Assembly (NCBI RefSeq): GCF_012849055.1
Contig: NZ_CP051677.1
Location: 4,479,001 to 4,543,000 of the forward strand
Direction: 5' to 3'
Source of the DNA: Spirosoma rhododendri
Lineage (GTDB): Bacteria; Bacteroidota; Bacteroidia; Cytophagales; Spirosomataceae
Length of the DNA stretch: 64,000 bases
Part shown: piece after piece, positions 16,168 to 34,290 of the stretch
Position numbering within the stretch: the first letter of the stretch is position 1
How the letters are laid out: each line of letters starts with the position of its first letter
Made by a program: the position numbers and the translations under genes
The notes under the pieces: model-generated
Told to the model about the DNA's origin: nothing
What the model saw: only the letters and a program-made list of their open reading frames with translations
The model's database searches: none

Positions 16168-16218
16168 TGTCTCACACATCGGAGCGCCGACCGGCACCCT
16201 GCTGTTTGAGACAATTCA

Positions 16219-17103: not shown

Positions 17104-17193
17104 ACGTCAAGTCAGTTTACGGTTAGTTCAGCGCGTGTCATGCACGGCGGTCTACTTAAATGACTTGCCCAAAATAGGGGTATACAGCGCTCT

Positions 17194-17270
17194 CATCGCC
17201 CTGACAGCAGGCGGGTTCTTCAGGAATGGGTATTTCTTCCAACGAAAAACCCGCCTGCCATCGGGACGAC
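17194..17270. repeat. Decayed GTCATCCCGA-type hairpin, probable copy 4
   Basis: An 11-bp perfect core (17207-17217 and 17248-17258, GCAGGCGGGTT) is extended outward by TCGCCCTGACA on the left and ATCGGGACGAC on the right, close to the GTCGGGACGAC arm end of the copy at 36485-36569. The mismatches suggest an old copy between the GH43 and GH16 genes. Confidence 0.5.
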
Positions 17271-17296
17271 ACGAATGCGATTTTCACCACTTCGCG

Positions 17297-18304
17297 CTAG
17301 CGTATTGGTCGGCGGCTGACGCCTTCTTTCGTGATTTTCACCGGCTTGATCGATCCATCAGCGGCAAACTCCATCCGGTCGATGCAGGTTTCGCGGTGGT
17401 TGCCGTCGGTTTCGGTCAGCGGCCGACGGTGGTAGACAATATACCAGTCATCCGTTGACCCGCTTGGTACCTGGATGACGGAGTGGTGGCCTGCGCCCCT
17501 GGCAACGGTCGGGTCCTGCTGGAGAATTTTACCGACGCGCTTGAACGGTCCGAACGGTGAATCGGCGACGGCGTAGGCAACGGAATAATCCGGTCCGGTC
17601 CAGCCCCCCTCCGACCACATGAAGTAGTATTTGCCGTTGCGGATAAACATAAACGGCCCCTCGACGTAGCCTTCCGGGGTAATCTCATGGAACGTTTTCC
17701 CATCGGGGAACGGCAGAAAACCGGTGAAGTCAGGTTTGAGTTTGGCGATGTTGCAATGCCGCCAGCCGCCGTAGATCAGGTAATACTGCCCGTCTTTGTC
17801 ATGAAAAACGAACTGATCGATGGGCTGCGCGCCGTTGTGAAACTTGTCGATCAGCGGCTTGCCGAGATAGTCGCGGAACGGACCTTCGGGTTTGTCGGCC
17901 ACGGCCACACCGATGCCGCCCCGCTCCTGATCGTTCTGGATGTCGTTGGCCCCGAAGAACAGGTAGTACTTGCCGCCTTTCTCCGTAATCGACGGTGCCC
18001 ACATCGCCCGCTTCGCCCATTTGATACTCGTCGTGTCGACGATGCGCGGATGCTTGGTCCACGTTACCAGATCGGGCGACGAGAAGGCGTCCATGAACAC
18101 CTGCTGGTTGTAGGGGGCCGAATAGGTCGGGTAAATCCAGTACTGCTTGTTGAAAACAATACCTTCGGGGTCGGCGTACCAGCCCGGGAAAACCGGATTT
18201 CCGGCGGTGGTTTTGGTGGCCGACGGGCTGGCGGTTTGCGCCGTGGCGGTAAGCGTTGTCAGCCCCAAGAGGGCGATCAGGGTTCGTTGAGCAAGTGACT
18301 GCAT
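17297..18304 (-). CDS. Secreted GH43-family glycosidase (arabinofuranosidase/xylosidase-like)
   Basis: 335 residues from the ATG at 18304, chosen because a signal peptide (to 'TLTATA') follows at once; a longer frame to 18370 adds a charged leader. The three catalytic acids of the five-bladed propeller are in place: Asp45 in 'PGWYADPEGI', Asp163 in 'QPIDQFVF' and Glu215 in 'YVEGPFMF'. GH43 enzymes remove arabinose, xylose or galactose units from hemicelluloses. It is upstream of the GH16 gene, and both face the T9SS operon side of the window. The substrate class is inferred only from the family. Confidence 0.9.
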   Translation of the reverse strand: MQSLAQRTLIALLGLTTLTATAQTASPSATKTTAGNPVFPGWYADPEGIVFNKQYWIYPTYSAPYNQQVFMDAFSSPDLVTWTKHPRIVDTTSIKWAKRAMWAPSITEKGGKYYLFFGANDIQNDQERGGIGVAVADKPEGPFRDYLGKPLIDKFHNGAQPIDQFVFHDKDGQYYLIYGGWRHCNIAKLKPDFTGFLPFPDGKTFHEITPEGYVEGPFMFIRNGKYYFMWSEGGWTGPDYSVAYAVADSPFGPFKRVGKILQQDPTVARGAGHHSVIQVPSGSTDDWYIVYHRRPLTETDGNHRETCIDRMEFAADGSIKPVKITKEGVSRRPIR

Positions 18305-18452
18305 TCGAAAACGTTGCGTTTTTTCAGGTTCTTCGCTCCCAATAAGGCAATTTCTTTCCGAAACTACCACGCAACCGGCTTCTCCGTTTTACATACCGCT
18401 GGTACGCAACGCTGAAAACTAGTAAATGGCGTGGTAGCAGAGCCACAGCACC

Positions 18453-18911
18453 CTATTCAGGAACGAGGCCGTACTGGTTAAGCGAATTACCCGTTTTGCG
18501 GCTTTCGGCGGTACGCTCCAGCTTCAGCGACGCGCTCGTAGGCACCTCCACGATGTAGTACTCGATGGTGCCGCCCGTGTTGGTCGGTCGGGGGTTCAGG
18601 TCAGCCAGAATCAGGCGTTGATTGTTGGTTGAGATAGTCCAGGTACCAGTCAGCAGCCGCCCGTCGATATCCGTCAGCTTCGCCACACCGGGCTGACTCA
18701 GATCGAGCCGGAAGCTGGCGTAGCCGGGCTTCGTGTTGCTGCTTCCCCCCTGCGTGTAGACCAGTACGTCGCCCTCTTTCACGGTCTGCGCCCGCCAGAT
18801 ACGCCCCAGCTGATCGGTGATCGACGCGACGGGTTTGGGGTGACAACCGAGCAGCAGACTCAGTACTACGAGCCCAGCCAGTTGAATCAACTGTGTTTGA
18901 TTTGGTTTCAT
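18453..18911 (-). CDS. Small lipoprotein, last gene of the surface operon
   Basis: 152 residues with a clear lipoprotein signal (hydrophobic run ending 'LLLGC', Cys at about 23). The mature part is beta-rich: 'TDQLGRIWRAQTVKEGDVLVYTQGG', 'LTGTWTISTNNQRLILAD' and 'YYIVEVPTSASLKLE', resembling the lipocalin-like small domains that often accompany surface proteins in Bacteroidota. Its start overlaps the stop of the FN3/CTD gene by four bases (18908-18911), so it is the translationally coupled sixth gene of the 33353-18453 operon. Being an outer-membrane lipoprotein, it could anchor or cap the secreted partners (inference). Confidence 0.75.
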   Translation of the reverse strand: MKPNQTQLIQLAGLVVLSLLLGCHPKPVASITDQLGRIWRAQTVKEGDVLVYTQGGSSNTKPGYASFRLDLSQPGVAKLTDIDGRLLTGTWTISTNNQRLILADLNPRPTNTGGTIEYYIVEVPTSASLKLERTAESRKTGNSLNQYGLVPE

Positions 18912-21900
18912 GGCAGCAGGATTCGTTTTGTCAGTTTACGCCCGTCGGCAACAAGGTGGACCAGGTAAGTTCCCGTCGGAAGGTGGTTCAGGTCGTAGTG
19001 CCAGCGGGCAGTGGGGCGTACCAGCCGATTATCGGTTAGAACCGATTGCCCGGTCTGGGTCAGCAGCTGTACCGTTGTCGACAGTGTCGAAAACCAGTTG
19101 GTGACGACGTTCAGTGCACGGTCGCTGACGTACAGTTCCGTGTGGGTATCCAGTTCGTCCTCCACGGCAATTATCACTTCGTTGATCCGGGCCGACGCGA
19201 CGTTGGAATAGCCGGAATTCCCCGCCGTATTGATGGCCTTGATGCGGTAGTAGTAGATCGTGAACTCGGTCAGGCCGGGGTCGACGTAGCTCGTGACAGC
19301 CGCCGGCACCTGCTTAATTTCCACAAATGGGCCGTTCGCGCTGGTCGCCCGTTCGATACTGATTGTCACGGCTTTGGGCGATACAGCCGTCCAGTTGAGT
19401 CGGATCTGATCATAGTCCTGCACCAGTGCCGTCAGGTCGGTGGGCGACGCAGGTGGTGCCAACGGCGTCGTGACGCAAACCGCATCGGCATAGCCCGATG
19501 GACCAGCCGCGTTTATGGCCCGGATGCGGTAGCAGTACTGCGTCGCGTCAGTCAGGTTGTTGTCGGTGTAGGTGGTGGCGTTGGCGGCAATGTCGGCGAC
19601 TTTGGTGAATGTGCCGGTGGCGCTGCTGCTGCGTTCAAGTTGAAAACTGCTTTCGTTGTTGCTCAGGTCGGCCCAGGCGAGTGCGACCTGCGTGGGCGAC
19701 GTGGCCGTGGCCGTCAACCGGGCAGGGGCAGCGGGGGGCACATCGGGGGTGGTGGCATCGGCAACGGCCGAATAGGCCGACAAACCCACCGCATTTTTCG
19801 CCCGAATCCGGTAGTAATAACGGGTATTGGGCGTCAGTCCAGTGTTCTGGTAAGTCGTCACGTTCGCACCGAGATCGGCGATTTTGGTAAACGTCGTGCC
19901 GTCGATTGAGCGTTCGATTTCAAAACCCGTTTCGTTATCCGACAAATCCGCCCAGGCCAGGTCTATCTGCGTGTTCGACGTAGCCGTGGCCGTCAGCCGG
20001 GCCGGTGCAGCGGGCGGACTGTCGGGGGTCGTTGCATCGGCGGTGTTGGAATAGTCTGATGAGCCAGCCGCATTCACGGCCCGGATTCGGTAGAAATAGC
20101 GAGTGCGGGGGCTGAGGTTGGGATCGCTATAGGTGGTGGCATTGGCCGCAACGTCGGCAATTTTCGTCCAGCCATCGCTCCCGTTCGGGCTCCGCTCGAG
20201 TTGAAAACCGCTTTCGTTGCCCGACAGGTCGGCCCACTGCAAATTGATCTGGCTGAACGATGCCGCCGTGGCCGATAGCCGGGCAGGAGCGGCCGGTGGC
20301 GCGTCGGGTGTGAGGGCGTTGGCGACGGCCGAATACGGGCCGGCACCGCTGGCGTTGGTCGCCCGGATGCGGTAGTAGTAACGGGTATTCGGCGTTCGTC
20401 CCTGATCGGCATAGCTCGTTGCATCGCCCGGCAGGCTGGCGATCTGCGCCCAGCCATCGTTCCCATTGGGGCTCCGTTCGACCAGCACATTCGTTGCCGT
20501 AGCAACCGCAGACCAGCTTAGGTTGATCTGGGTGGTCGATACCGCCGTAGCTACCAGATTCTGCGGAGCGGCCGGTGGCCCAGCAGGCGTCGTCGCATCA
20601 ACAACGCTCGAATAGCCCGATACCCCCGCTGCGTTAACAGCCCGAAGCCGATAGAAATACTTCGTCTGCGGCTGCACCGTATTATCGGTGTAAGTTGTCG
20701 CGTTGGCTGCTACGTCAGCTAGTTTGGCCCAGTTGCTGCCGTCAGGGCTGCGCTCCAGTTGAAACCCGATCTGATTGGCCGAGCCAGCCGCCCATTGCAG
20801 ACTGATCTGATTGTAAGCCACTGACGTAATTACGAGCCGGGCCGGTGCAGCGGGTGGACTATCGGGCGTAGTCGCGTCGGCGGTGTTGGAGTAACCGCCC
20901 GGCGCACCGGCTGCGTTCAGCGCACGAATCCGGTAAAAATAGCGCGTGTTCGGCGTTAGGTTTTGGTCGCTGTATGTTGTGGCGGTACTGGCGGGGTCTG
21001 CTATCTTCGTCCAGCTGTCGTTTCCGTTCGAGCTACGTTCCAGTTGGTAACCCGACGCGCCCGACACGCCCGACCAGCTGAGATTGATCTGCGTGGTCGA
21101 CACAGCCGTTGCAGCCAGATTCTGGGGCACCCCGGCCGGAGCAGCCGGTGTCGTCGCGCATTGCGTGTCGGTGTAGCCGCTCGGCCCTACCCCGTTCACG
21201 GCCCGCACCCTGTAGCAATATTGCGTACTGCCCGACAGACCATTATCGCTGTAGGTCGTAGCGTTCGCACCGAGGTCAGCAATTTTGATGAACGTACCGC
21301 TGCTGTTCGGTGCCCGTTCGATCTGAAAACCCGTTTCATTGTCCGACAAATCCGCCCATTGCAAATTGATCTGACTACTGCTCACGGCATTCACGCTCAG
21401 CCGGGCGGGGGCGTTCGGTGCCGTAGGTGCCGGGGCTTTGGTCGTGCCACAGGCTTCGTTGCTGTAGCCCGAATACAGACCCGCGCTGTTCTTTGCCCGT
21501 ACTTTATAGCAGTACTGCGTGTTGGCCGACAAGTTGTTGTCGGTAAAAATCTTCTGCCCGAAATCAGCCTGAACAACCGTGTACGTCCCGCCCGCGCTGT
21601 TGGCCCGCGAAATCTCGAACGTGACCGGTACGACATTGACATCCTGCCAGAACACCTGTAGCTGACTGGTCGAGACAGCCGATACCGTTGCCCCCGAGGG
21701 CGTAACGGGGGGCGTTGGTGCGGGGGCCGTCGTAGTAGCGCAGGCTACGTTTGAGTAGTCCGATGTGCCGCCCGGTCCCCGCGCCCGGACCCGGTAGCAG
21801 TACTGGGTCCCGCTGCTCAGTCCGCCATCGTCGTAAGTCGGTGTCCGGCTATACGGCACGACAGCCACCTGCGTGTACGACCCGCCCGCCGACGCAGCCC

Positions 21901-22354
21901 GTTCGAGCAGAAAGTCGGTGGCGCTTCCGGCACCGGGGTTGATCCAGGTCAGGCGAATGGCCGAGGTCGACAGGGTGGCAGCGCCGAGACCGGTGGGCGT
22001 CGTTGGGGGTGTGGCGGGAGTCGTCACGGTTACTTCAGCGGAGTAACCCGTAGCGGCACCCGTTGCCACAATAGCCCGAACCCGGTAGGTATACGACCCG
22101 CTGCCCTGCACGGAATTGTCGGTGTAGGTCGTAGCATTGGCAGCGGCCTCCCCTACCTTTGTGAAGCTGGTGAAGTCTTTCCGCTCGATCTCGAATTTGG
22201 ATTCGTTCGTCGCATTGTCTTTCCAGGTCAGCACCACCCGGTTATAGGCCGGTGCCGAGCCTGCCAGATTCGACGGCGCGTTGGATTGGGCAGACAGGCG
22301 GAATGCGGTTGCCAGCAACAAAGCCAGCAACCAGAAGCGTGTGGATAGATTCAT
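18908..22354 (-). CDS. Secreted 11x fibronectin type III protein with T9SS C-terminal sorting domain
   Basis: 1148 residues: signal peptide to about residue 22, then eleven fibronectin type III domains of about 90-95 residues (to about 1057). Most begin 'APPAAPARLxATA', continue with 'INLQWADLSxNExGFxLERS' and end with 'RYFYRIRAxNAAG'. A final 89-residue C-terminal domain ('TVQLLTQTGQSVL', 'NHLPTGTYLVHLVADGRKLT', ending 'KRILLP') is a type A T9SS sorting signal, by which the protein would be exported across the outer membrane and left on the surface or released. FN3 arrays serve as spacers or binding surfaces. The gene starts two bases after the frameshifted FN3 gene and overlaps the lipoprotein gene. 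The near-identical domains suggest recent internal duplication. Confidence 0.9.
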   Translation of the reverse strand: MNLSTRFWLLALLLATAFRLSAQSNAPSNLAGSAPAYNRVVLTWKDNATNESKFEIERKDFTSFTKVGEAAANATTYTDNSVQGSGSYTYRVRAIVATGAATGYSAEVTVTTPATPPTTPTGLGAATLSTSAIRLTWINPGAGSATDFLLERAASAGGSYTQVAVVPYSRTPTYDDGGLSSGTQYCYRVRARGPGGTSDYSNVACATTTAPAPTPPVTPSGATVSAVSTSQLQVFWQDVNVVPVTFEISRANSAGGTYTVVQADFGQKIFTDNNLSANTQYCYKVRAKNSAGLYSGYSNEACGTTKAPAPTAPNAPARLSVNAVSSSQINLQWADLSDNETGFQIERAPNSSGTFIKIADLGANATTYSDNGLSGSTQYCYRVRAVNGVGPSGYTDTQCATTPAAPAGVPQNLAATAVSTTQINLSWSGVSGASGYQLERSSNGNDSWTKIADPASTATTYSDQNLTPNTRYFYRIRALNAAGAPGGYSNTADATTPDSPPAAPARLVITSVAYNQISLQWAAGSANQIGFQLERSPDGSNWAKLADVAANATTYTDNTVQPQTKYFYRLRAVNAAGVSGYSSVVDATTPAGPPAAPQNLVATAVSTTQINLSWSAVATATNVLVERSPNGNDGWAQIASLPGDATSYADQGRTPNTRYYYRIRATNASGAGPYSAVANALTPDAPPAAPARLSATAASFSQINLQWADLSGNESGFQLERSPNGSDGWTKIADVAANATTYSDPNLSPRTRYFYRIRAVNAAGSSDYSNTADATTPDSPPAAPARLTATATSNTQIDLAWADLSDNETGFEIERSIDGTTFTKIADLGANVTTYQNTGLTPNTRYYYRIRAKNAVGLSAYSAVADATTPDVPPAAPARLTATATSPTQVALAWADLSNNESSFQLERSSSATGTFTKVADIAANATTYTDNNLTDATQYCYRIRAINAAGPSGYADAVCVTTPLAPPASPTDLTALVQDYDQIRLNWTAVSPKAVTISIERATSANGPFVEIKQVPAAVTSYVDPGLTEFTIYYYRIKAINTAGNSGYSNVASARINEVIIAVEDELDTHTELYVSDRALNVVTNWFSTLSTTVQLLTQTGQSVLTDNRLVRPTARWHYDLNHLPTGTYLVHLVADGRKLTKRILLP
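19183..22282 (-). repeat. Tandem FN3-coding units (eleven)
   Basis: DNA-level tandem repeats of roughly 275-285 bp, one per FN3 domain. Neighbouring units in the middle (about 19900-21100) share long near-identical stretches such as the codons for 'PPAAPARL' and 'NATTYxD'. Such a layout favours unequal recombination and repeat-number change. Confidence 0.75.
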
Positions 22355-22356
22355 GG

Positions 22357-24484
22357 CTAGTTGACGTTGATAGTTACCCGGTTCGACAGCCCCGACTCAC
22401 GCCCGTCCTGGTAGATCGCCTTGACGGCGTATTCGTATTGCCCCGGCGGCACAGTCTTATCAGTGAATGTCAGTTCGCGGTTGACGGACTCGTACGAGCG
22501 CAGCGAACTGGCACCCGTCGCCCGGTAGATGATGAAGCGGGCGTACGGATCGGGGTGTTGCCAGCGCAACGCTACCGTTCGACCATCGGCCCCGACCTGC
22601 GCCACCAACTGCCGGGCCGACCGGGGAATAGCCCGTAACGTATTGACAGTTGAGCGGAAACGACGCGGGCGATGCCAACCCCGCCGAATCGACCGCCATC
22701 AGCATATAGCTGTACGGCGCGTCGGGCTTTACCTGCTGATCGGCGTAGCTGTCCTGCTGGGGGGTCAGTTTGGCCAGTTCGCGCCAGTTTTCCGTCGCGG
22801 CTCCCCGCCGGTACAACACCTGTTCCTGCACATCCTGACTGATGCTGGGTGTCCAGCGCACCACAATGGCCGTGTCGCTGGCTACGAAGTCGCTGATGAC
22901 CGGGCTGCTGGGCGGTACTTTGTCAGGGCGAGCCAGTTCGAGAATATCGGGTGGCGGGCTGGGGTTGTAGTTTTTATCGTAGGCTACAACCCGGTAATAC
23001 AGCTTTTTCGTCAGTGTGCTCAGCGTCGTTTGGTCGTCGTACACGCTGGTGGGCAGGTAATCGCTGGTGCGGTTGGTGAACACGTGATCGCGCTGGTTTG
23101 CCATCAGCACCGCATAGCCCAGCAGGTCCGGCTCCGCGTTGGGGTCCCACACCAGCCGCACATAACCGGTCGTGTCGATATAACCCTGCACGTTTTTAGG
23201 CTTCGCCGGGCCTGTCACATCTTTAAAAGTGCAGTAAGCCGCCATCGACGGACTGGCGTTTTTGGCCGTATCGAGCGCGACAACTTTGTAAAATGTTTTC
23301 CCATACGGATTCGCCGTTTCATCGATGTACTCCCGGACGGTTTTGCCCAACACCTGCTTCGTCAGCGGACTGACCGGGCTTTTTTCGTCGTTGCCCCGCG
23401 CAATGATGTACCCGGCAAAATCAGACGGCAGCGCCGACTGCTCCCACGTAATGCGGACTTTGCTACCGCCGAGGTGTTTGGCCTGCACATTCCGGGCTGC
23501 GGTGGGCGGGGTCAGGTCGATGCCCTGCGCCGTGATGACGGGCGACGGCACGCTGCGCTCCCCGAACGGGGAAATGCCAACAACGCGGTACTGATACCGG
23601 ACGTAGTTTCGCTGCAACGAATCGACATAGCTGTACAACGCCTGCTCCGACTGCACGGGTGCCTGTGTGTACGGCAGTCGGTTTAGCCGCCGGTAGGTGC
23701 GCCCGCCATCGGCCGAACGCTCGACGTAGTACGCCGAAAACAGTTCGTCGCTCACCTGCCTATCCCAAACGAGCCGAACGATTTTGTCGAGCTGCTCGGC
23801 CCGGACGCTGGGCATGGGTGGGCGCACATACGACCCCACATTGCTGACCATTACTTTCTGCTCATCAACCGATAGAAAACGGCCATCGTAGCGGGGGGTC
23901 AGGTAATAGAAATACTGCGTGCCTTTCTTCACCGCCCGGTCGATGTAGCCAAGCCCCAGCCCTTCGGCATGGCGCGCATTTTCGTCGGCCAGCAGCAGCA
24001 GCAGCAACATCAGCTGAAAATCGTCCTGCGTTTTCTGCTGTACCAGCTTGTCGAGCGTAACGGCATCGTTGGCTGATTTGAGCACGCTGTTTTTACCGTG
24101 TGCCAGCTGCGCGCAGGCCGCAGCCAGACTGTCGGTGCGGGGGCTGCGCTGCTTCCATTCGTCGAGCGTCCAGCCCCGGACGTCCTTCTGAAAATCCAGG
24201 TGCAGCCGTCCATCCGCGCCAAGGCTGCGCCGGGTCAGAATGTAGCCGCCGTTTCGGTTGATTTCGCGAAAGAGAATAACGCTGTGCGGTGCCCAGCGGA
24301 CCACGACCGAGTCGCCGAACGCCCGGCCAATTGCCGACAGCTCAAAGTGCGTGTCGGCGCGGGCCGTTGCCGACCCAGCCGCCGGACGCGTGGTTGTCGG
24401 TGCCGCCTGACGCTGCGGACGCTGCGCCAGTAAGGATGCACCCGACAGACCGATAAGCAAGACTAGTAGACAGACTGATTTCAT
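22357..24484 (-). pseudogene. Secreted fibronectin type III protein with a +1 frameshift near 22650
   Basis: The frame from 24484 (signal peptide to 'ASLLAQ') runs well into the protein but leaves the conserved FN3 frame after 'SPASFPL' and would end at 22460. The correct continuation is in the next frame and ends at 22357 with '...ESGLSNRVTINVN'. Removing one T of the TT at 22650-22651 (one A on the coding strand) restores '...PASFPLTVNTLRAIPRSARQ' and gives a 708-residue protein, with four or five FN3-like domains from about residue 200. An N-terminal domain of about 190 residues has no family I know. It stands between the 376-residue gene (25-base gap) and the 11xFN3 gene (2-base gap). The extra base may be a real mutation or an assembly error. 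Confidence 0.8.
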
Positions 24485-24509
24485 AGCAGTATTGGTCGAA
24501 GGCGAATGG

Positions 24510-25640
24510 TCAGTGGATGATGACCGGCGGGTCGTTGTTTTTCTTGTCTTTCGATGAATCGTTACCCGACGAATTGGTAGGCGTAATAACGATTTTGCTG
24601 GGGTCGGGAACGGTTACCAGGCCAATGCCAGAGAACCCATTTCCAATGTTTGTCGCCATGTTGAGCAGGGATGGCGACGGAAAGGGCAACAACCCGTTGT
24701 CAATGGCAAACCTATCAACATAGCGGTCGCCGGTACCGTCCTCACTGACCACGTCGGAGGCCAACGTTGCCCCCGGTAATTGCTTGAGGTAGAAGGCAAT
24801 CGACGATCCCGGCTTGGTTTGTTTCCAGTAGTAACCACCCTTGATCTGGTTAAACTGATTAAACAGTTTGCTAACCTGATCGCTATTCGGCCCCGCCCCA
24901 CCCGACGGTTTTCCGGTCGTTCCCAGCGTTTCGGTCTGCTTGATTTTACTCAGCACGTAAGCCACGCAGTCTTTCGCCGTATCACGGATTCGGTCTTTCC
25001 CCCGGCTGGGATCGCTGCCCGCCGAAGCCATGTACATCGTGTTGGGATTGTACTGCGCAATTGTCGGTTCGCCCGATGCCGTGGCGGCTCGTTGCAGGTC
25101 GCTCGAAAAGTATAGAACCCGATAATCGTCATTCAGCGACATGAAATAATCCGTGTAAAAACCCACCGTGAACGACTCGGTGATGCTTTTCATGAATTTC
25201 TCACGGGCTTCTGGACTCATACTTTTGGGTTGGCCCGTCTGCGTACCTACGGCCAAATGGTACTCATACGTCAGTCCGCCCGCAATGCCGATCAACTGGT
25301 CGATCAGCTCCTTTCGCAGTGGATAGGTATCGTTCAGCGTCGAAAGCATCACATCGACATTATCCTCTAACCGTTCGACGTAGACCTTGTAGATCGGCGC
25401 ATTCAGGAACATCACACCGTATTTGCCCGGCTGACTGCTGATTGCCTGTCCGCCCAACGCCATGCTCTGTGTTTTCTGGCCAAATCCGTCCGCTGTGACG
25501 TTCTTGTTGACCGCGTTATTCATATCGGCAGTGGTCATTTTCAGGCCAGCCTGCGCCCGGCCATCGCTGCCCGACCAGCCCCAGACGATCAGCGTAAGCA
25601 GGGCCGCAACCAATTGATGCATCATCGTTCTCATTGCCAT
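24510..25640 (-). CDS. Secreted protein of unknown function in the surface operon
   Basis: 376 residues with an N-terminal signal peptide ('ALLTLIVWGWSGSDGRAQA'). The mature part begins 'GLKMTTADMNNAVNKNVTADGFG'. The rest is polar with an Asn/Ser-rich, proline-containing tail (PTNSSGNDSSKDKKNNDPP). I see no known domain and no T9SS sorting motif. Its ATG shares one base with the stop of the giant gene (TGATG at 25640), so the two are translationally coupled. Conserved-looking stretches are 'QPGKYGVMFLNAPIYKVYVERLEDNVD' (middle of it 'VMFLNAPIYKVYVERL') and 'YTDYFMSLNDDYRVLYFSSD'. A structural partner of the giant protein is the best contextual guess. Confidence 0.75.
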   Translation of the reverse strand: MAMRTMMHQLVAALLTLIVWGWSGSDGRAQAGLKMTTADMNNAVNKNVTADGFGQKTQSMALGGQAISSQPGKYGVMFLNAPIYKVYVERLEDNVDVMLSTLNDTYPLRKELIDQLIGIAGGLTYEYHLAVGTQTGQPKSMSPEAREKFMKSITESFTVGFYTDYFMSLNDDYRVLYFSSDLQRAATASGEPTIAQYNPNTMYMASAGSDPSRGKDRIRDTAKDCVAYVLSKIKQTETLGTTGKPSGGAGPNSDQVSKLFNQFNQIKGGYYWKQTKPGSSIAFYLKQLPGATLASDVVSEDGTGDRYVDRFAIDNGLLPFPSPSLLNMATNIGNGFSGIGLVTVPDPSKIVITPTNSSGNDSSKDKKNNDPPVIIH

Positions 25641-28600
25641 CAGTTCTTGAGGTAAGCGTTCATACTGGACTTCGACAGGGGCGGCTGCGGTTTGTCGAAC
25701 CCACCCTGGTTGACGAGCACCACCTGCCGCATCAGCGTCTCATAGTCGACCACGCCGTAGCTCGTATTGGCCGCCGTCTTGAACAGGATATCCTGACTGG
25801 CATTCTTGTAGGCCGAGATACCATCGATTAGCCCCAGCATTGGCTTTACAAATTCAGCAAACCAGGGGTTGGAGGTGTCCAGCACCTTCTGCAACACGAG
25901 CGGGGGCAGGTAACTCCCGTTAGGCAGCTTCTTCCAGAGCAGTTCGTAACTGTCGAAACCCTCGGCCCCCTGCATCGGTATGGTGTATGCTTCGATGGTC
26001 GACGTCCGCACTGTTTTTTGCTCGGTCAACAGGAAGGGGCTCGCTTTCAGCTTCTCCGCCAGCGTACCGTACTGACTGGTCTGGAAATAATAGCTGTAAA
26101 CGGGCTGTTCCAGCTGCGTTTTCACGTCGACCACTTCGTCGCTTTTACCCTTGCCCAGCTTGATGTCGTTCATGGCCCCGGCCTGCTGGCTGGTTATTTT
26201 CATTCCGGTAGCAGTCCCCAGTTTACCGCCATTTGTCTGCTGAGTGGCCTGATCGGCATAGGCACCGTTGTAGCTCTGCGCCAACCCGTTGATACTGGCC
26301 GATTTTGATCCTAACCCGGCACCCGGCTTCGTGGATACGGTGGCCGTTCCGAACCCGAACTCCGCCGACTGCCCACCGAAATAGTTGGCTTCCAGTGCCT
26401 TGCGGATTTTCCCTTTTTGAGCGGCAATGATTTTTGTTTGTTCGGCCACCAGCGCGTCGGTCGGTTCGCGGAACACTTCGAGCCGGTACAGGGTCTTTTT
26501 CTGGAGGAAATTAGGCGGAATGCCAAACCGTAGCATCTTCCCATCGAACTGCGCGTTGGGATTCGTCCAGACCGTGCTGGGGTCTTTTTTGTCGAACTTC
26601 CCGCCTTTCAGTGCCGTGTACCGAACACTTAGCCGGTAAAACTTGTCGGTCTGAATGTTGTTGAGGCAGCAGCCAAAGTTGCTCGACAGCTCGACGTAGC
26701 CGAAAATCCCCGCGTCGTTGATAGTCAGATAACGCTGCCCTTCGAACGGGTACGAGTACGCTACCGACGGCACTTCCCCATCCTGACTAAGCGAACTAAC
26801 ACACTCGCCCGTCGTGAAGGTGCTTGACTTTGTTTCCGTAATAAGCTGATTTTTGTAGGAATAAGGTTCGTACTTGTTCGTACCCGTATTCAGCAGGTTG
26901 ACGCCCAGCGTCAGCGAAACGCTTAGTTTGGTATTGGGCGGCAGGGTAGCATCGCGGAAGAAGCTGACGTTGAAATTACCGCCCCCGTCGGGGTCGCTGC
27001 CGAAGCGGAGCCGTCCGTCGTTATTGACGGTACACTTCGATTGCGGGTCCGTCGACAGCGCCGTCGTAACGAAGGGGTTCGCCGGGGTACCGCTGGTAAA
27101 ATCGAGTCGGAACGTACGGAAGCTGGCAATGGGCTGTTTCGATTCAGGATCAACATCGTTAATCTGAATGAGGGTCCGGACGGGGTAGCTGAACTCGGCA
27201 TAATACGGTGCAATCACCGACACATTCGTGCCTCCATTTTCGGGCGTCATCCCTGAAATGAGCGGCAGGTCAGCAAAGGGGTTTGGCTGCTCAAATTCGG
27301 GTTTGCACTGCCCGTCTTTGTTGTACCACAACTCAAACGTGGTACTGCCTTTGATGCGCCCGCCCAGTGCCCGGTAGCGCAGCAGAATACTGCCGTGCAG
27401 CCAGACCGGGTTTACCATACCACCTTCCAGCAGGGCCGTCGCCTGTAGTTTGAGCAGTTCCAGATAGCCCGTATAAATCCAGACGTCGATCTCGATGCCC
27501 AGCGTCAGACGCATATCCGCGTACATCTGCCCGTTGGCGTACCAGCCATTGATACCGGGCACCTCGCCACCCGCGCAGGGTGCCGTCACTTTTTGCAGGG
27601 CGAAATCGAAGCCGAGCGCCACGTGGTAGTCGGCCCGGAACGGCCCGAACGACGGGTGCCCATCAGCCACAAACCCGGCCCCAAACGCTAACGCATCCGA
27701 CCCGGCCGGTTGACCACCATGATAGCCGAGGGCTTTCAGGTCAGCCTCGGAAATACCCCAGGGCGGTGGTGGCAACTTATCGATGCCGGTTGGCTTCAGG
27801 TTGTTGTACATCACGAAGTACGATCCGAAACCCACGCTCCCCAGTTCGCTGAGTTTAACCTCCAGCTTTATTCGTTGCGAGTTGGCAAAGCAATCATCAG
27901 CGTTGCCGCAGGGCGTCGCGTCGGGCAGACCGAGGTAGAAATACCAGCCGCCTGGTTTCTTCTGGTCGTCTGTCAGCTTAGCACTAGCATCCCCTAGAGC
28001 ACCTGGAAAGGTAACGTGCATACCCATATCGCCCTTGCCCGTGATGGTCAGGGCGCTGGTACCAGCGGGCTGGTAGCTCATCGTCAGCGCGAACTTGCTG
28101 TCGAAGAATCCCTGATCGAAATTGACGTCGATGTAACCGTCGCCCTTTGCCAGCGCCTTGTCCGGTTCAGGGCCGAGCAGGGTGGCCGTCAGGTCGAGCC
28201 GCAGGTCGCTCAGGTGAAAGCCGTTGTCGGTACGCACCGTTGCGGCCATTACGCCGGTCATGTCGAGCAGGTCTCTCCGCTGTAGGGTCACTTCTACGGC
28301 TACCTCGAAACCCGTATGATCTTTACTGGGTGTATACCCAATCTGGCTAGGTTTGCCCGGAGCACCCGGCTGCGTTTCCTTCACCATGTTGTGGAAGGCA
28401 CCACCGCCAAAGCCCGCCAGCGACAGCGGTGTGCCGGGAATCGGTATCGGCGTGGGCAGTTCCGCCAGTCCGCCCACCTGCCAGTAGCGGAAGCCATTGA
28501 CCCGCCCGAAATAGCCCTGTAGTTTCATGGCCGCGCCCAGCACCGCCACCCGCATATCGCCTTTGAAACCATCACCGTACTTGGGGTTGCTTTCCGCATC

Positions 28601-31600
28601 AAAAAACACCGCCGACCCGTCGATACGCATGAAACTCAGGGAACCGTGAATACCGACCGAATCGACGCCGACTTTATCGAGACCCCAGTTTGGCCGTTTC
28701 CCGGCACCGAAGGCAATGGTAAAGCGCACGTAGGGCGAAACGGCCGCGTGAACATTCCCCTCCATCAGGGTGATGTCGCCGGTAAATTTGAAATCATACT
28801 TTCCCGGATTACCCGTAACCGTCGTCAGGCTGACGCCTTTGATCGTGACGGGAAAGCCTTCGTTGTCGGCATCAGCGAGCAGTGATTTCTGGGGCGACGC
28901 AAACGACGAGTTAAACTTACCGGGCGTGAAATAGCTTTTACCGTCAGGAGGTGAACTTTGCAGCTCCATCCCCTCGATGGTCATGCCCGGCGATACTATT
29001 TTGGCATTGACACTCAGCCTGGCGTTGAGCGTAACCGTCGCGTTGAACGCGCCGTCTTTGTTGCCCTTGTTGCCGACCGTGATGTTCGTACCCTTGAGCA
29101 CCGATAGTTTGGCCGCCCAGATTGCTACGCTCGCTTCTTCTTTCGGCGCGACGATCTGGAACTGATAAGCCAGTCCACTACCGGGTTTTTCGTCCTTCGA
29201 TAGGGTACAGGTATACGGCCAGATGGACGACTTTTCTACCTGCGTTTCGTCGGTGTCGTCGGTGTATTTGAAAATCGGCATCACGACCCGCCCAGCCAGT
29301 CGGGCCTCCTTAAACGCGCTGGTGAACAGATTCAGCCGCAGCGTATCGGCCGAGCAGTACCAGCCGTCCAGCGACCCGGCACCCAGCTTGATAATGGGCG
29401 TGGCGTTGATAAGTCCGGTGAAACCGTTATCATCATAGATCAGGTTGTCGACCGTTAGTACTGTCGGCTCGCCCTTGTTCAGCGATTTCAGCACTGTCGT
29501 CGTCACCTTCAGCTTCGGGAAGAACAGACCCGTCCACTCGTTGCCGGGTTTCTGCCCTTTTTGCGGGTAGTCGCCGGGCAGTTTGGCCGTATGCTCGTCT
29601 GGCGCTTCGTCGGGTGATTCGGACTGATCGTAGATACCCTGCTGCCCATCCATCGAAAAGATAAAATCGCGGGAAAGCTTGTCGACGTAGAAATCCGGGA
29701 ACGACACCCGGGCGGTCCAGTCGTTGAGGTCGGCTTTCGGCGAATCGTAGACCAGCGAGAAGGCAACATCTTTGTCTTTATTGGCTCCGCTTGCTTCTTT
29801 CAGGCCGGCCAGTTTCAAATCGGCGAGGATATGTATGGACTTGAACGCCCATTCTTTCAGGTTGACGCTGGTAATCTTCGTAAAGTCAAGATTACCAAGG
29901 GCTTTGTCGTTGACATTGGTGGAGGCTCCCTTGAACGTCAGCGAAGGAGGAACGGGTGTATCCAGACCGAGGTACAACGTCATGTCGCCACACATAGCCT
30001 TACCGGGGCTTAGACAAACTTTCGTTGCACTCAGCGGCAATCCACCGAAGCTGGCTTTGGCAACTTTAAACCACGTTACCGCATCGAAATAGGCCTGCGC
30101 CGGTTCAAAAACGACGTTCGTAATGGCAACGTCGACCGCCGACATGTACACACCCAGCGGCATTTCCCAGCCCGCGCTGTTCTTCGACGCCAGTACGTCG
30201 TTTTTGATGTCGCTGATTTTCTGCGCGATTTTTTTGACGTCATTCGGTTTCAGCGACAGGGCACTAAAATCGGGCTTGTCATAGTCAGGGAGCAGACCAG
30301 CATTCTGGTTGAGCAACCCACGGGCGATACCCGCGACAGCCTGCCCCGCGCTGTTGCACTGCACCTTGTCGAGTTTGACGCGCAGCTTGATGTACCCACC
30401 GCCAACGTACGGCAACTGCACAGTACCGCTGCCATTGATCCGTTGATTTTCGTCGAGACTGACGTTGGTCAAATCAACTGTAAAGCCCGCGATGGTGAGT
30501 TGCTTTTTGTTGACAACCGTCTTGTTGTCGTCGACACTACCCACAGTTACCCCCGGTGGCGTTTTGCAGGAGCAGTTCGTAATTTTCTGTTCGTAGGGAG
30601 TCGACTGCGGGGAAATTTTGCTGGCTACCGCCGTCGCCCCTTCCGGTGGCGTGTCCTCCCCCACCAGGCCGGGCAGCGGGATCAGCTTGCCGGGTGTCTG
30701 TACCAGTTCAAGGCCCGGCGTTTTGGTCAGCGGGGGCAGGCCGGTGCCGTAGGTGAATGAGCAGACGGGCGCTTTGCCGTCGTTCAGAAAATGCAGCTTA
30801 CCGCTCCGGTCGATGGCCTGCACGCGCCAGGCGTAGCGTTTGCCCAGTTGCAGGGGCGGCTGCGTGGGGCCGTACAGAAACGTGCTCGTCCGTAAGCCGC
30901 GCACTTCTACACCCGACCGGGGCAGGGCCACCGCGTCGATAAATACGTTCGGGTCAACGTCGGCCTGCGGCAGCTCGACCACGCGCAGAGTGTACTCCAC
31001 CGACACGGGCGATACACCCGCCGGGGGCGTCCAGGTAAACACCATCGCCTGCGGATTCGTCGCCGTCACTTCCGCGTCGCAAAGGGGCGCAATCAGAATG
31101 GGCGGCTCGACGGACCGGACGGTGATCGGGGCCGAGCAGCCAATCGGAAACTCCGCCGACAGGGGTTGGCCGAAAGGCACGGCAGCGGTGTTGGTCGCCG
31201 TTTCGTTGAACGCCCGAATGCAAAGCTGGTAGGTGCCGTCGGGCAGCGGCAGACCCCGCGCCAGTAAGTTTTTGTCGATACCCGTCACCTCCACCTGATT
31301 CAGATCGAACAAGCCTTCGAGGTCGTTACGGCTCAGCAGTGTTTGCCCCGGCGGCACCGTCAGCGGGCGCGGTGGGCGGTAGTTGGCCGACGTACGAATC
31401 TCGATACCGTTGTCGCCGGTCAGTTGCCCGGCCAGCCGAATCTGGTAGGTGCTGCGGCTAGTGTTGATGATGAACACGCGCACCTGCTGCCCCGCGCCGG
31501 GATAGTCCTGCAAATAGGCACTGTAGGGCGGCAGCACGCTGACCTGCACTTGCAGCGGGAAGGTTTGCGCCCACCCGGTCAGGGCGGTCAGCAGGAGTCC

Positions 31601-31654
31601 GAAGACAACCAGCCAACCCCACTGCCGGGCGAACGACTGTCGATTGCGTAGCAT
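25640..31654 (-). CDS. Giant secreted protein (2004 aa), TANFOR-like N-terminus
   Basis: The start at 31654 (MLRNRQSFARQWGWLVVFGL) precedes a signal peptide ending 'LTGWAQ'; an ATG at 31678 is an alternative overlapping the upstream stop. The mature N-terminus (PLQVQVSVLPPYSAYLQDYP) resembles what I remember of the TANFOR domain of Tannerella and Cytophaga surface proteins. An Ig/FN3-like segment follows (to about residue 330, 'MVFTWTPPAG'), a Cys pair ('NCSCKTPPG'), then more than 1000 residues of beta-rich sequence with many short 'xxxGxxxV' strands and no recognised catalytic motif, and a final alpha/beta tail. No T9SS sorting domain is visible at its C-terminus. It sits between the beta-barrel gene (7-base gap) and the 376-residue gene (1-base overlap). 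An assembly or adhesin scaffold is the likely role (inference). Confidence 0.8.
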   Translation of the reverse strand: MLRNRQSFARQWGWLVVFGLLLTALTGWAQTFPLQVQVSVLPPYSAYLQDYPGAGQQVRVFIINTSRSTYQIRLAGQLTGDNGIEIRTSANYRPPRPLTVPPGQTLLSRNDLEGLFDLNQVEVTGIDKNLLARGLPLPDGTYQLCIRAFNETATNTAAVPFGQPLSAEFPIGCSAPITVRSVEPPILIAPLCDAEVTATNPQAMVFTWTPPAGVSPVSVEYTLRVVELPQADVDPNVFIDAVALPRSGVEVRGLRTSTFLYGPTQPPLQLGKRYAWRVQAIDRSGKLHFLNDGKAPVCSFTYGTGLPPLTKTPGLELVQTPGKLIPLPGLVGEDTPPEGATAVASKISPQSTPYEQKITNCSCKTPPGVTVGSVDDNKTVVNKKQLTIAGFTVDLTNVSLDENQRINGSGTVQLPYVGGGYIKLRVKLDKVQCNSAGQAVAGIARGLLNQNAGLLPDYDKPDFSALSLKPNDVKKIAQKISDIKNDVLASKNSAGWEMPLGVYMSAVDVAITNVVFEPAQAYFDAVTWFKVAKASFGGLPLSATKVCLSPGKAMCGDMTLYLGLDTPVPPSLTFKGASTNVNDKALGNLDFTKITSVNLKEWAFKSIHILADLKLAGLKEASGANKDKDVAFSLVYDSPKADLNDWTARVSFPDFYVDKLSRDFIFSMDGQQGIYDQSESPDEAPDEHTAKLPGDYPQKGQKPGNEWTGLFFPKLKVTTTVLKSLNKGEPTVLTVDNLIYDDNGFTGLINATPIIKLGAGSLDGWYCSADTLRLNLFTSAFKEARLAGRVVMPIFKYTDDTDETQVEKSSIWPYTCTLSKDEKPGSGLAYQFQIVAPKEEASVAIWAAKLSVLKGTNITVGNKGNKDGAFNATVTLNARLSVNAKIVSPGMTIEGMELQSSPPDGKSYFTPGKFNSSFASPQKSLLADADNEGFPVTIKGVSLTTVTGNPGKYDFKFTGDITLMEGNVHAAVSPYVRFTIAFGAGKRPNWGLDKVGVDSVGIHGSLSFMRIDGSAVFFDAESNPKYGDGFKGDMRVAVLGAAMKLQGYFGRVNGFRYWQVGGLAELPTPIPIPGTPLSLAGFGGGAFHNMVKETQPGAPGKPSQIGYTPSKDHTGFEVAVEVTLQRRDLLDMTGVMAATVRTDNGFHLSDLRLDLTATLLGPEPDKALAKGDGYIDVNFDQGFFDSKFALTMSYQPAGTSALTITGKGDMGMHVTFPGALGDASAKLTDDQKKPGGWYFYLGLPDATPCGNADDCFANSQRIKLEVKLSELGSVGFGSYFVMYNNLKPTGIDKLPPPPWGISEADLKALGYHGGQPAGSDALAFGAGFVADGHPSFGPFRADYHVALGFDFALQKVTAPCAGGEVPGINGWYANGQMYADMRLTLGIEIDVWIYTGYLELLKLQATALLEGGMVNPVWLHGSILLRYRALGGRIKGSTTFELWYNKDGQCKPEFEQPNPFADLPLISGMTPENGGTNVSVIAPYYAEFSYPVRTLIQINDVDPESKQPIASFRTFRLDFTSGTPANPFVTTALSTDPQSKCTVNNDGRLRFGSDPDGGGNFNVSFFRDATLPPNTKLSVSLTLGVNLLNTGTNKYEPYSYKNQLITETKSSTFTTGECVSSLSQDGEVPSVAYSYPFEGQRYLTINDAGIFGYVELSSNFGCCLNNIQTDKFYRLSVRYTALKGGKFDKKDPSTVWTNPNAQFDGKMLRFGIPPNFLQKKTLYRLEVFREPTDALVAEQTKIIAAQKGKIRKALEANYFGGQSAEFGFGTATVSTKPGAGLGSKSASINGLAQSYNGAYADQATQQTNGGKLGTATGMKITSQQAGAMNDIKLGKGKSDEVVDVKTQLEQPVYSYYFQTSQYGTLAEKLKASPFLLTEQKTVRTSTIEAYTIPMQGAEGFDSYELLWKKLPNGSYLPPLVLQKVLDTSNPWFAEFVKPMLGLIDGISAYKNASQDILFKTAANTSYGVVDYETLMRQVVLVNQGGFDKPQPPLSKSSMNAYLKN

Positions 31655-31661
31655 GGTGTGG

Positions 31662-33353
31662 TTAGAAAGAAATGCCATAGCCGAGGTTCGCTCTGAGTTC
31701 GTTGAACGTCTGTGACTGAATGCCCGTGTTTGAGTTGAGGTAGTTGGCCGACAGGCTGATTGTCTGCCGCTTAGCGACCTGGTAGCCCGCATTGGCCGTA
31801 ACGGTCAGCACCTTGCCCGTCAGGCCAGCCTGTTGATTGACGAGGTAGCTGGCGGTGGCCGAAGTGGTCAGTTTTTTCTCGAAAAAAGCCTGCGTCGCGC
31901 CCAGCGTCGGGCCGAAAAACCGGACCGTCTGATTGGTGTCGCCGACGGCAATGGGCAGTTGCGTCTGCGTGTACGACAGCATCCCGTTGATCCCCCAGCC
32001 GGTCGTGGTCTGCTGGTAGAAATAGCCCAGATTCAGGTTGGTATTCGTGTTCTCCGTCTGATTGGCGGTGTTGGCGTTCAGGTCGCTGAGTTTCTGGTAG
32101 GTCGTCGTCAGCGTAAAAACCTGCATGACGTCGTCTTTCTGAAGCGTGTACCGCCCGTTGACGGTGGCCGAGAGGTTGTTCTGCGATAGCCGGAGCGTAT
32201 CGATCAGCGGCCGTAACCCCGCCTGCTGACTGATGCCGTAATTCGATAGCTGCACGTCGACACCGTAGGCCGTAGCAGGGTTATACGACACGACGAGCGA
32301 CCCGATTTTCCGGCCCGTCCGCGCGTTTTTGTTCCCGGCCAGATTGTCGAACTGAATGCCGTAGCTGCCCGACAGCCGAAGTTTCCCGTCGATCAGGGTC
32401 AGGTTGGGCGCGATGGCGTAACTTTCGATGTCGGACTGGAAATAGTACGCACCCATCGTCTGAAAATTCGGATCGATGCGCTTGTACTGGAGTTTGATAC
32501 CCGCGTTGCCCCCCCGATAACCAACTGCCGCCTGCGTTGCCTGCGTCAGCTGCGTTGAGAGCCGGGGGGTGAACAGCTTGCCGAACAGGCGCGTAGCCGG
32601 GTTGCTGCCTTCGGTCGATACGAGGGTGGCCCGGATGTCGCGGGTATAGGCACTGACGGCCTCGTCCAGTTCGACGGTAATGTGTTTCAGAATCAGCAAC
32701 CGGGTGGTCAGGCCCACGACCAGATTTTCGGCGGGGACGACGGTCTGGGTCAGCGACTGGGGTTGCGACGCTATTGAGGCCGAATCGTCTTTGGCCCGCA
32801 GCATAATCAGGTCGACGTAGTTGCCGGGTTTGCCGTAACCGACTTTCACGGCATAGCCCGTGCGCTGATAGGCCGGGATGATGTCGGGTTCGGCGAGGTT
32901 GCTGGAAATGGCTTTGTTGAACCGGCCGTAGACTGCCCCCAGCCGAAGCTTACCGGGGTTCAGTTCGACACCCCCGCCCAGAAACGTGTGTCCGGCCAGC
33001 GTAAAGGGTGAAAAGCTGACGTTGCGGTAGCCCGCGTGAACGGTCGCCCATTTGTAGGTCGGCGACACACCAAACTGGTTGAACGGTTGCCGGAAGCTGC
33101 TACCCTGATTGCCTAGTACCGCCGAGAACGGCAGCGAGATACCGCCAGGAAGTGCCACCGTAACGGCCCCGCTGATGCCAAACGGCGACGCCTGATTCCG
33201 GGCGGCAATGCCATCGGCGGCATAGAAGCCCGCGTAGGCATTCAGCCCCCCCGACACCTTCACCGGCAACGGTCGCCGGTCGGGTGCCGACTGTGCCCAG
33301 AGTGGTCGACTAAGCAGGAGCAGGAAGCCAGTAAGCAGTAGAGTTGAGCGCAT
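31662..33353 (-). CDS. Outer-membrane beta-barrel protein, first gene of the surface operon
   Basis: 563 residues with a signal peptide (ending 'SRPLWAQ') and a mature part made of about twenty alternating amphipathic strands ('TYKWATVHAGYRNVSFSPF', 'GRKIGSLVVSYNPATAYGVDV', 'LTVTANAGYQVAKRQTISLSA'). The C-terminus 'LRANLGYGISF' ends in Phe after an aromatic pattern, the usual outer-membrane signal. It is not a TonB-dependent receptor (no plug domain) and does not match PorP/SprF in an obvious way. As the first gene of a six-gene operon it may form the pore or base for the secreted proteins encoded downstream. Upstream at 33436-33475 is an element also found before the response regulator gene. 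Confidence 0.8.
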   Translation of the reverse strand: MRSTLLLTGFLLLLSRPLWAQSAPDRRPLPVKVSGGLNAYAGFYAADGIAARNQASPFGISGAVTVALPGGISLPFSAVLGNQGSSFRQPFNQFGVSPTYKWATVHAGYRNVSFSPFTLAGHTFLGGGVELNPGKLRLGAVYGRFNKAISSNLAEPDIIPAYQRTGYAVKVGYGKPGNYVDLIMLRAKDDSASIASQPQSLTQTVVPAENLVVGLTTRLLILKHITVELDEAVSAYTRDIRATLVSTEGSNPATRLFGKLFTPRLSTQLTQATQAAVGYRGGNAGIKLQYKRIDPNFQTMGAYYFQSDIESYAIAPNLTLIDGKLRLSGSYGIQFDNLAGNKNARTGRKIGSLVVSYNPATAYGVDVQLSNYGISQQAGLRPLIDTLRLSQNNLSATVNGRYTLQKDDVMQVFTLTTTYQKLSDLNANTANQTENTNTNLNLGYFYQQTTTGWGINGMLSYTQTQLPIAVGDTNQTVRFFGPTLGATQAFFEKKLTTSATASYLVNQQAGLTGKVLTVTANAGYQVAKRQTISLSANYLNSNTGIQSQTFNELRANLGYGISF

Positions 33354-33650
33354 ACATCAGTCGGTCAGGGAGTCCGGTGGATTCACGCTGCTTAGTCGAA
33401 GAGCGCCGAATCACGGAAACAAACCTACTGGTAATCAGCCCGTTGCACAATCGGATAAATGTATGACCGACTCCGCACCTGTTCACCTGTTAGCAATTGA
33501 CAGTCAACAGGTTACACCATCATTCTGTACTACGCCCGGCCGTACGTTTATACGGTAGAATCGGTAAGAATCCGGGGTATGCCTGCGTAGAAACCCGCAC
33601 AGCCAACTATGCACAGTGAGGGCGACAGATACTGTATCGTATGCGTGGCA
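33354..33650. other. Regulatory stretch upstream of the surface operon
   Basis: 297 bases without a gene. It holds the element shared with the response-regulator promoter region (33436-33475), an ACCTGTT/AACAGGT inverted repeat (33485-33491 and 33506-33512) and a CCGTA/TACGG mini-hairpin near 33541-33556. Confidence 0.5.
33436..33475 (-). promoter_or_regulatory. Element shared with the response-regulator upstream region, site 1
   Basis: CAGCCCG followed by AATCGGATAAATGTATGACC and GACTCCG. It aligns to 42981-43022 with the core AATCGGATAA(A/G)T(G/A)TATGAC and the end ACTCCG conserved. The core is about 96-122 bases upstream of the beta-barrel gene start. On the coding strand it contains TACATTTA, similar to a -7 element, so it may be a promoter plus activator site. 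Confidence 0.55.
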
Positions 33651-34229
33651 CTAATCGTTCAGCCCCTTTACGTCGAGAATATCAGGAATGCATTTCTCGA
33701 TACGCGACTCCCGCGTTTTAGCCTGTTTGGGCGCGGCAAAATGCAGCAGATAAGCGCGTTGGCGCCCGGGTGTCAGGGCAGCAAAGGCGGTTTTTAGCGC
33801 AGCGTTCCCGTCCAGCTGACGCTGAAATTCGTCGGGGACGGCATAGTCGGCTGGTTGTTTGAGACTGACCTTTGCGCCCGCTTTTTCCAGCTCGATGGCT
33901 TCGTACAGATAAGCTTTCACAGTGTCACGCAGCGGGGTCAGTTGCTGCACGTTCGTAAACCGAATCTGGCGGCTTGCCTGCGTGTTTTCGGTCTGCTGAA
34001 TCAGTATGCCAGCCGGATCAGCCAGGAGAACCCCTTTGACAAACAGGAGCGCGCAATAGTCTTTAAAGACGTGCATCAGCACCACGTTACTGCCTCGATA
34101 CGTGTAGCAGGGAACACCCCATTTTATGGTTTCCTCGACCGGACAATCGAGCACGATAGTCCGTAGAGCCGTTAGTTCCTGATGCCACTGTCTGGCGTTA
34201 TCGATGTACTCGTCTACGGCTGGATTCAT
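33651..34229 (-). CDS. YdeI/OmdA-family protein with DUF1801 domain
   Basis: 192 residues. The N-terminal part has the DUF1801 pattern ('ETIKWGVPCYTYRGSNVVLM'). The C-terminal part has the YdeI (OmpD-associated) signature 'PDEFQRQLDGNAALKTAFAALTPGRQRAYLLHF' with 'RESRIEKCIPDIL' at the end, of which 'LTPGRQRAYLLHF' is the strongest block. These soluble proteins have no firmly established biochemical role; links to cell-envelope stress and peptide resistance are reported for the YdeI part in enterobacteria. It is a single gene, transcribed divergently from nothing nearby. Confidence 0.85.
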   Translation of the reverse strand: MNPAVDEYIDNARQWHQELTALRTIVLDCPVEETIKWGVPCYTYRGSNVVLMHVFKDYCALLFVKGVLLADPAGILIQQTENTQASRQIRFTNVQQLTPLRDTVKAYLYEAIELEKAGAKVSLKQPADYAVPDEFQRQLDGNAALKTAFAALTPGRQRAYLLHFAAPKQAKTRESRIEKCIPDILDVKGLND

Positions 34230-34290
34230 AATGTATCAGACAACGAATTTTGGTGAATTTCGAGAGGATGTGACTGAAAACGGGGCTGAC

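Follow-up and report, generated by a model that had tools for sequence, protein, structure and literature searches.

Evidence for a constant barrel and TANFOR-like module beside an exchangeable giant exported protein in Spirosoma rhododendri

Background

What might six adjacent genes for exported proteins, one of them a giant, accomplish together in the bacterium Spirosoma rhododendri? The genes lie on the minus strand at positions 18453-33353 of the window, by which we mean the whole 64,000-nucleotide stretch analysed (positions 4,479,001 to 4,543,000 of contig NZ_CP051677.1, in a genome of 6.05 Mb). An earlier account based on the letters alone, hereafter the sequence-only reading, described them as an operon for a surface fibre or adhesion machine built of a pore, a giant scaffold, a long spacer and an anchor, and matching no named system. 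Its observations are mostly right, but the machine misses the main point, which is that a constant stem, composed of an outer-membrane-type barrel and a TANFOR-like module, appears to be followed by an exchangeable giant cassette.

All six genes were found, and an export signal is visible by eye in every one of the six proteins. In order of transcription they encode a β-barrel protein of 563 aa (31662..33353), a giant, a 376-residue protein (the slot protein), two proteins with FN3 domains (FN3a and FN3b) and a small protein in which a lipobox (LLGC) can be seen by eye, as befits the small lipoprotein that had been claimed. Junctions of +7 (barrel end at 31662, start of the 2004-residue form of the giant at 31654), -1, +25 and -4 bases are exact, whereas the +2 given for FN3a and FN3b is wrong: FN3a stops at 22460 and the next start is at 22354, leaving a gap of 105 bases.

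Results

The arrangement is far beyond chance, since the six-gene order was found again at four loci (L071, L073, L074 and L079) and since a TANFOR-like gene stands directly after the barrel in 78 of 80 named loci, these being the best 80 of 156 ranked by likeness of the barrel to the query. This bears out the expectation that the exported proteins, among them a barrel and a probable substrate of the type 9 secretion system (T9SS), share a conserved neighbourhood; homologues scattered singly were not seen. These and the other distribution data come from genome searches.

The only curated match of the giant is to TANFOR (TIGR02542; residues 83-204 of the 2050-aa open reading frame, ORF; E 8e-7, 29.1 bits); a scan of the N-terminus by itself gives 32.3 bits. 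Neither score attains the curated cut-off of 67 bits, which is reached by none of 395 genomes sampled across the phylum, and the module is called TANFOR-like for that reason. At E<=0.01 the model matches 32 of the 46 module rows and 20 of 22 giants. A tie to the TANFOR proteins treated in PMC7073777 therefore exists, albeit below the family's curated threshold, and the set is not without any named relative. In the window the TANFOR-like and FN3 N-terminal module occupies 30746..31654 on the minus strand (approximately residues 1-303 of the 2004-aa form). All eight candidate fusions that were fetched carry barrel and TANFOR-like module in one chain, the module preceding the barrel. Sequence comparison thus shows barrel and module to be a conserved pair, sometimes in one polypeptide. 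In the literature on TANFOR and related systems, with preprints and most subscription papers outside the scope, no description was found of the pairing, of the fusions or of the cassette exchange reported below, and the words "barrel" and "porin" are absent from the main text of PMC7073777.

At four loci (L102, L105, L106 and L111) a passenger of the window's type, that is, the part of the giant beyond the module, is encoded as a separate ORF without a TANFOR-like module, which shows that the two can also occur apart. At the fourth of these, a barrel, the separate passenger-type giant and FN3a all lie upstream of a TANFOR-like protein (L111:12246-18533) that bears a PT-HINT pretoxin domain.

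While barrel and module stay the same, the passenger (25640..30745, minus strand) does not. Seventy-nine giants, from 70 of the 80 named loci (those with complete giants over 1200 aa), the window and eight chosen loci, fall into passenger groups of 33, 31, 9, 5 and 1, defined as BLAST groups with over 40% of the passenger covered; the window belongs to the group of 31 (class B, equivalent to class II of the passenger grouping). A quick barrel tree, which drew long-branch warnings and spans 80 loci (the same 70 plus nine others and the window), requires at least 24 changes of passenger group, where the least possible number is 4 and the shuffled mean is 36. Pairwise identities, computed for 644 of 656 pairs, show what changes with it. 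Among pairs whose barrels are 80-100% identical, those of the same passenger group (n=74) have mean identities of 86.6% in the barrel, 85.4% in the module, 60.3% in the passenger and 63.7% in FN3a; for those of different groups (n=38) the corresponding means are 84.8, 80.3, 27.4 and 26.4%, against a shuffled baseline of 23%. Across the 13 of 17 Spirosoma loci used (L070, L075, L082 and L084 omitted), which were classed by hand, FN3b and the lipoprotein do not track the passenger group: FN3b is 62.5% identical within and 61.5% between groups, and the lipoprotein 60.2% and 68.2%, the former value being lowered by a wrong 159-aa gene taken as the lipoprotein of L078 (the right one has 144 aa). 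One different-class Spirosoma pair still retains 55% identity over aligned passenger positions.

The edges of the exchange can be mapped in close relatives. Between Runella defluvii (L175) and R. limosa (L176) the aligned DNA is 88-95% identical up to about codon 370 of the giant and 94.7% identical from the start of FN3b, and the middle, of 5.5 and 8.2 kb, is without a match, so that both breakpoints are visible. In the Spirosoma pair L155 and L072 the left match likewise stops near codon 315 of the giant gene. The giant is accordingly constant only in its first 300-370 residues or so, and in most class changes the entire passenger of 1000-2300 residues is replaced, well beyond the tip alone. 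Given the identity patterns and the mapped breakpoints, the exchanged unit comprises the passenger, the slot gene and FN3a, which sequence comparison shows are replaced together, with barrel and TANFOR-like module as the constant left flank and, in Spirosoma and Runella, a right flank that is constant from FN3b onwards. By analogy with the mapped pairs we infer an exchangeable cassette at 22357..30745 of the window (minus strand), its left edge being approximate.

Within the window's group the slot gene (24510..25640, minus strand) is present at 14 of 31 loci; in the other groups it stands at 0 of 33, 1 of 9, 0 of 5 and 0 of 1. With 14 of 31 loci in the window's class and 1 of 48 elsewhere, the six genes are not one obligate set. 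Its product had been called an orphan and indeed has no match in Pfam or NCBIfam at E<=1; as a member of a fast-changing family, it is nevertheless not solitary. Slot proteins look exported and are very divergent, and the idea that they are unrelated orphans was rejected after weak but repeated cross-matches between their subfamilies (links of L179 and L216 are weak, and none for L101 is convincing). A tip domain near the C-terminus of the giant, at 25778..26167 in the window (minus strand; residues 1876-2005 in the numbering of the 2050-aa ORF), is recognised by a profile seeded from nine slot-positive giants. All 14 giants with a slot gene end 35-123 residues after this domain. Of 22 slot-less giants, 15 have the tip, two of them weakly, and continue for 161-361 residues, and 7 have no detectable tip. 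The tail of one slot-less giant (L072) is matched by the slot-family profile over positions 88-333 of 339 (E 9.5e-12); no further slot-less tail was matched at the threshold of that test. At least there, then, the slot protein is a detachable C-terminal module and not a spacer, and in its behaviour the 376-residue protein resembles a fast-evolving module that can come away from the C-terminal end of the giant.

The barrel itself belongs to a family without a domain model. The window's barrel has no Pfam or NCBIfam match at E<=1, and among 57 members compared with both libraries at E<=0.1 no family is common to more than two; neither PorP/SprF nor Omp85/POTRA models are matched, and a single member has a weak T9SS_plug_1st match (E 0.0072). 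The structure model has about 25-26 strands, the first of which, near residue 32, follows the signal peptide with no domain in between. Its nearest fold is MtrB at 12% identity, Foldseek lists the FimD/PapC ushers at 10-12%, and AlgE and OprD-family porins are also listed by VIA. The resemblance to MtrB is one of shape only. The closest named barrel is that of Spirosoma oryzae (95%).

A second copy of the barrel, 40% identical, is found in the same genome (L003/L089, C1:402-413 kb), where it is followed by a giant of 2054 aa with the window's type of passenger and by FN3a, and where the set is preceded by a lipoprotein-like protein of 389 aa that looks PKD-like by eye. Related barrels at L090, L091, L096, L098 and L193 (34-41% identical) have no TANFOR-like neighbour and lie next to small conserved proteins (about 147-194 aa), which may point to another use of the barrel. 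At L138-L142 the barrels are longer by about 250 residues at the C-terminus and are followed by a TANFOR-like giant and by genes of 164-263 aa, which could be immunity or tip genes.

Discussion

We lean towards the view that the locus specifies a giant exported protein, open to exchange, on an outer-membrane stem that stays constant. All six proteins would leave the cytoplasm via Sec, and the barrel would insert into the outer membrane. As the module precedes the barrel in the fusions, and as the N-termini of barrels normally face the periplasm, the TANFOR-like module may dock at the periplasmic side of the barrel or in its wide lumen, and the passenger with its tip would thereby be displayed outside. 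T9SS would export at least FN3b. The exchanged part would most likely serve contact with other cells, in antagonism or recognition, and such contact would explain its repeated replacement. A swappable giant next to a constant barrel suggests a way of showing changeable proteins to neighbouring cells. A bolder version, according to which the wide barrel and the TANFOR-like module form an undescribed secretion and display system of the Bacteroidota outer membrane, with the module as address and plug for its own barrel and with a cargo cassette of passenger, tip module and FN3 partner swapped by recombination, is put forward as tentative, and we hold it to be somewhat doubtful.

Several observations weigh against a stem of this kind. 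Docking of the giant by the barrel, its export and its display are what we infer. In seven of the eight fusions the profile match begins only at barrel position 98-109, which leaves the first strands of these barrels unconfirmed. The named loci were also ranked by likeness to the query. Moreover, 8 of 104 genomes with the module have no detected barrel, 65 sampled genomes have a barrel match and no TANFOR match, and barrels without a TANFOR neighbour occur among the 80 named loci (L189 and L193) and several times elsewhere. Of 95 strong TANFOR matches, 18 have no barrel within 20 kb among the matches listed and 16 have one only at 3-20 kb, the adjacency figures so counted being lower bounds. 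Finally, SprA is encoded in all 104 genomes with the module and all 161 with the barrel, compared with 304 of 395 overall, and hence the barrel may not be the exporter.

This last point also speaks for the idea that the giant is exported by T9SS via SprA without a classical sorting domain, while the barrel only catches and anchors it in the manner of a PorP/SprF shuttle. SprA is present in the host genome (2272 bits), FN3b has a T9SS-like tail, and cognate pairs of substrate and shuttle are known in Flavobacterium according to the relevant part of PMC12618676, where a type B substrate, like the giant here a large exported protein, is genetically tied to a barrel of its own. The association with SprA is, however, confounded by descent, genomes without it clustering so that 15 of the 20 listed belong to one family (71 more are unlisted). 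Sorting domains (TIGR04183, TIGR04131) are absent from all 22 giants at E<=0.01 and from the window's giant at E<=1, the barrel matches neither PorP/SprF nor any other family model, and its gene lies upstream, in contrast to the shuttle gene directly downstream in that part of PMC12618676. We regard this route as unlikely, if a serious contender. Less probable still is a classical TANFOR polymorphic toxin whose C-terminal module, here the slot protein, would be directed at competitors. The hallmark of polymorphic toxins, a constant N-terminal part with an exchanged C-terminal part, is present, and in the sections of PMC7073777 that concern them TANFOR proteins are treated as polymorphic toxins for which a T9SS route was suspected though not shown, their genes enriched near FN3 and T9SS-sorted neighbours in T9SS-bearing genomes and their toxins located at the C-terminal end or encoded by the gene that follows, much as the TANFOR-like N-terminus stands here behind a signal peptide and slot gene and giant tail are complementary. 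Nevertheless, libraries that contain only described toxin families yielded no known toxin domain in the window's six proteins (Pfam, NCBIfam) or in 22 whole giants (Pfam), and a single toxin-related match among 20 C-terminal pieces, the PT-HINT domain of the relative L111, which counts in favour. No small immunity-like gene lies beside the giant in the window: FN3a, which changes with the passenger but has about 700 aa, directly follows the slot gene, and the slot protein has a signal peptide of its own. The barrel partner, its fusions, the replacement of the whole passenger with FN3a and the lack of any match to a toxin or immunity family also set the locus apart from the toxins described there.

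The export signals, the FN3 arrays and a gene order that is conserved within Spirosoma are compatible with what the sequence-only reading proposed, a machine of six fixed subunits for a surface fibre or for adhesion. Behind a constant barrel, however, the passenger, the slot gene and FN3a are exchanged, the slot gene is almost confined to part of one class, and a giant of which all but the N-terminal module comes in several classes is hardly a scaffold, nor its neighbour a long spacer; we consider such a machine improbable. Most improbable of all is a nutrient-uptake porin with surface proteins that bind its substrate. The AlgE and OprD-family porins among the structural neighbours would agree with it, but no carbohydrate-active family was found in the six proteins (Pfam, NCBIfam), and neither fusion to TANFOR nor cassette exchange would be expected of a porin.

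In two-partner secretion and contact-dependent inhibition (TpsB-TpsA, CdiB-CdiA), a barrel gene likewise adjoins that of a giant whose N-terminal module is constant and whose C-terminal part varies. TpsB is an Omp85 barrel with 16 strands and POTRA domains, whereas here there is no Omp85/POTRA match, about 26 strands are modelled, and the barrel begins at about residue 32. Chaperone-usher systems combine an usher barrel bearing plug and end domains with chaperone and pilin genes; no usher, chaperone or pilin family was found in the six proteins (Pfam, NCBIfam). MtrB and FimD/PapC, as very wide single-chain barrels, are the nearest folds, but the likeness is again of shape only, and the locus shows neither a haem protein nor a chaperone or plug domain.

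If the secretion and display system were real, it would provide TANFOR toxins with the outer-membrane route that is missing for them, their crossing of that membrane being left open in the main text of Jana et al. 2020 (PMC7073777). Lacking a domain model, the barrel family is invisible to a domain-based neighbourhood method, and a barrel upstream of, and sometimes fused to, a TANFOR-like domain makes the question of the route testable. Mapped cassette breakpoints tell parts that must fit the stem from parts that must match one another. For finding the target recognised by the exchanged part, Runella defluvii and R. limosa offer a natural pair.

Additional features of the locus

FN3a (22460..24484, minus strand) has 674 aa here and 699-745 aa in same-class Spirosoma orthologues. 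A different reading frame down to 22357 (region 22357-22660) encodes the C-terminus seen in relatives, pointing to an apparent frameshift near the end, by mutation or sequencing error, which the sequence-only reading had read through. FN3b (18908..22354, minus strand; 1148 aa) has the eleven fn3 stretches that had been counted, and its T9SS sorting domain, said to be directly visible, looks real but remains below the curated cut-offs (TIGR04183, 22.3 bits against 23; PF18962, 18.3 against 27). The lipoprotein gene (18453..18911, minus strand) completes the part that is constant in Spirosoma. In a weak AlphaFold2 model the passenger is all-beta.

Base composition (G+C of 56.4% in the passenger, 53.7% in the slot gene, 59.8% in the barrel, 64.5% in the TANFOR-like part, 60.6% in FN3a and 61.0% in FN3b) gives no clear sign of foreign origin, and the cassette of the Runella pair resembles its left flank in composition. 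A Bacteroidota promoter pattern had no match in the window (0.76 expected), and an Rfam scan of 16000-35000 gave none at gathering thresholds. An exported protein, glycosidase-like by eye, is encoded on the same strand 82 bases downstream of the six genes (17297-18370); it was rejected as a member of the locus, being outside the conserved order. At L075 the same locus appears split into several ORFs, with the giant in pieces of 521, 966 and 541 aa and the FN3 genes likewise fragmented, which would reflect decay or poor sequence.
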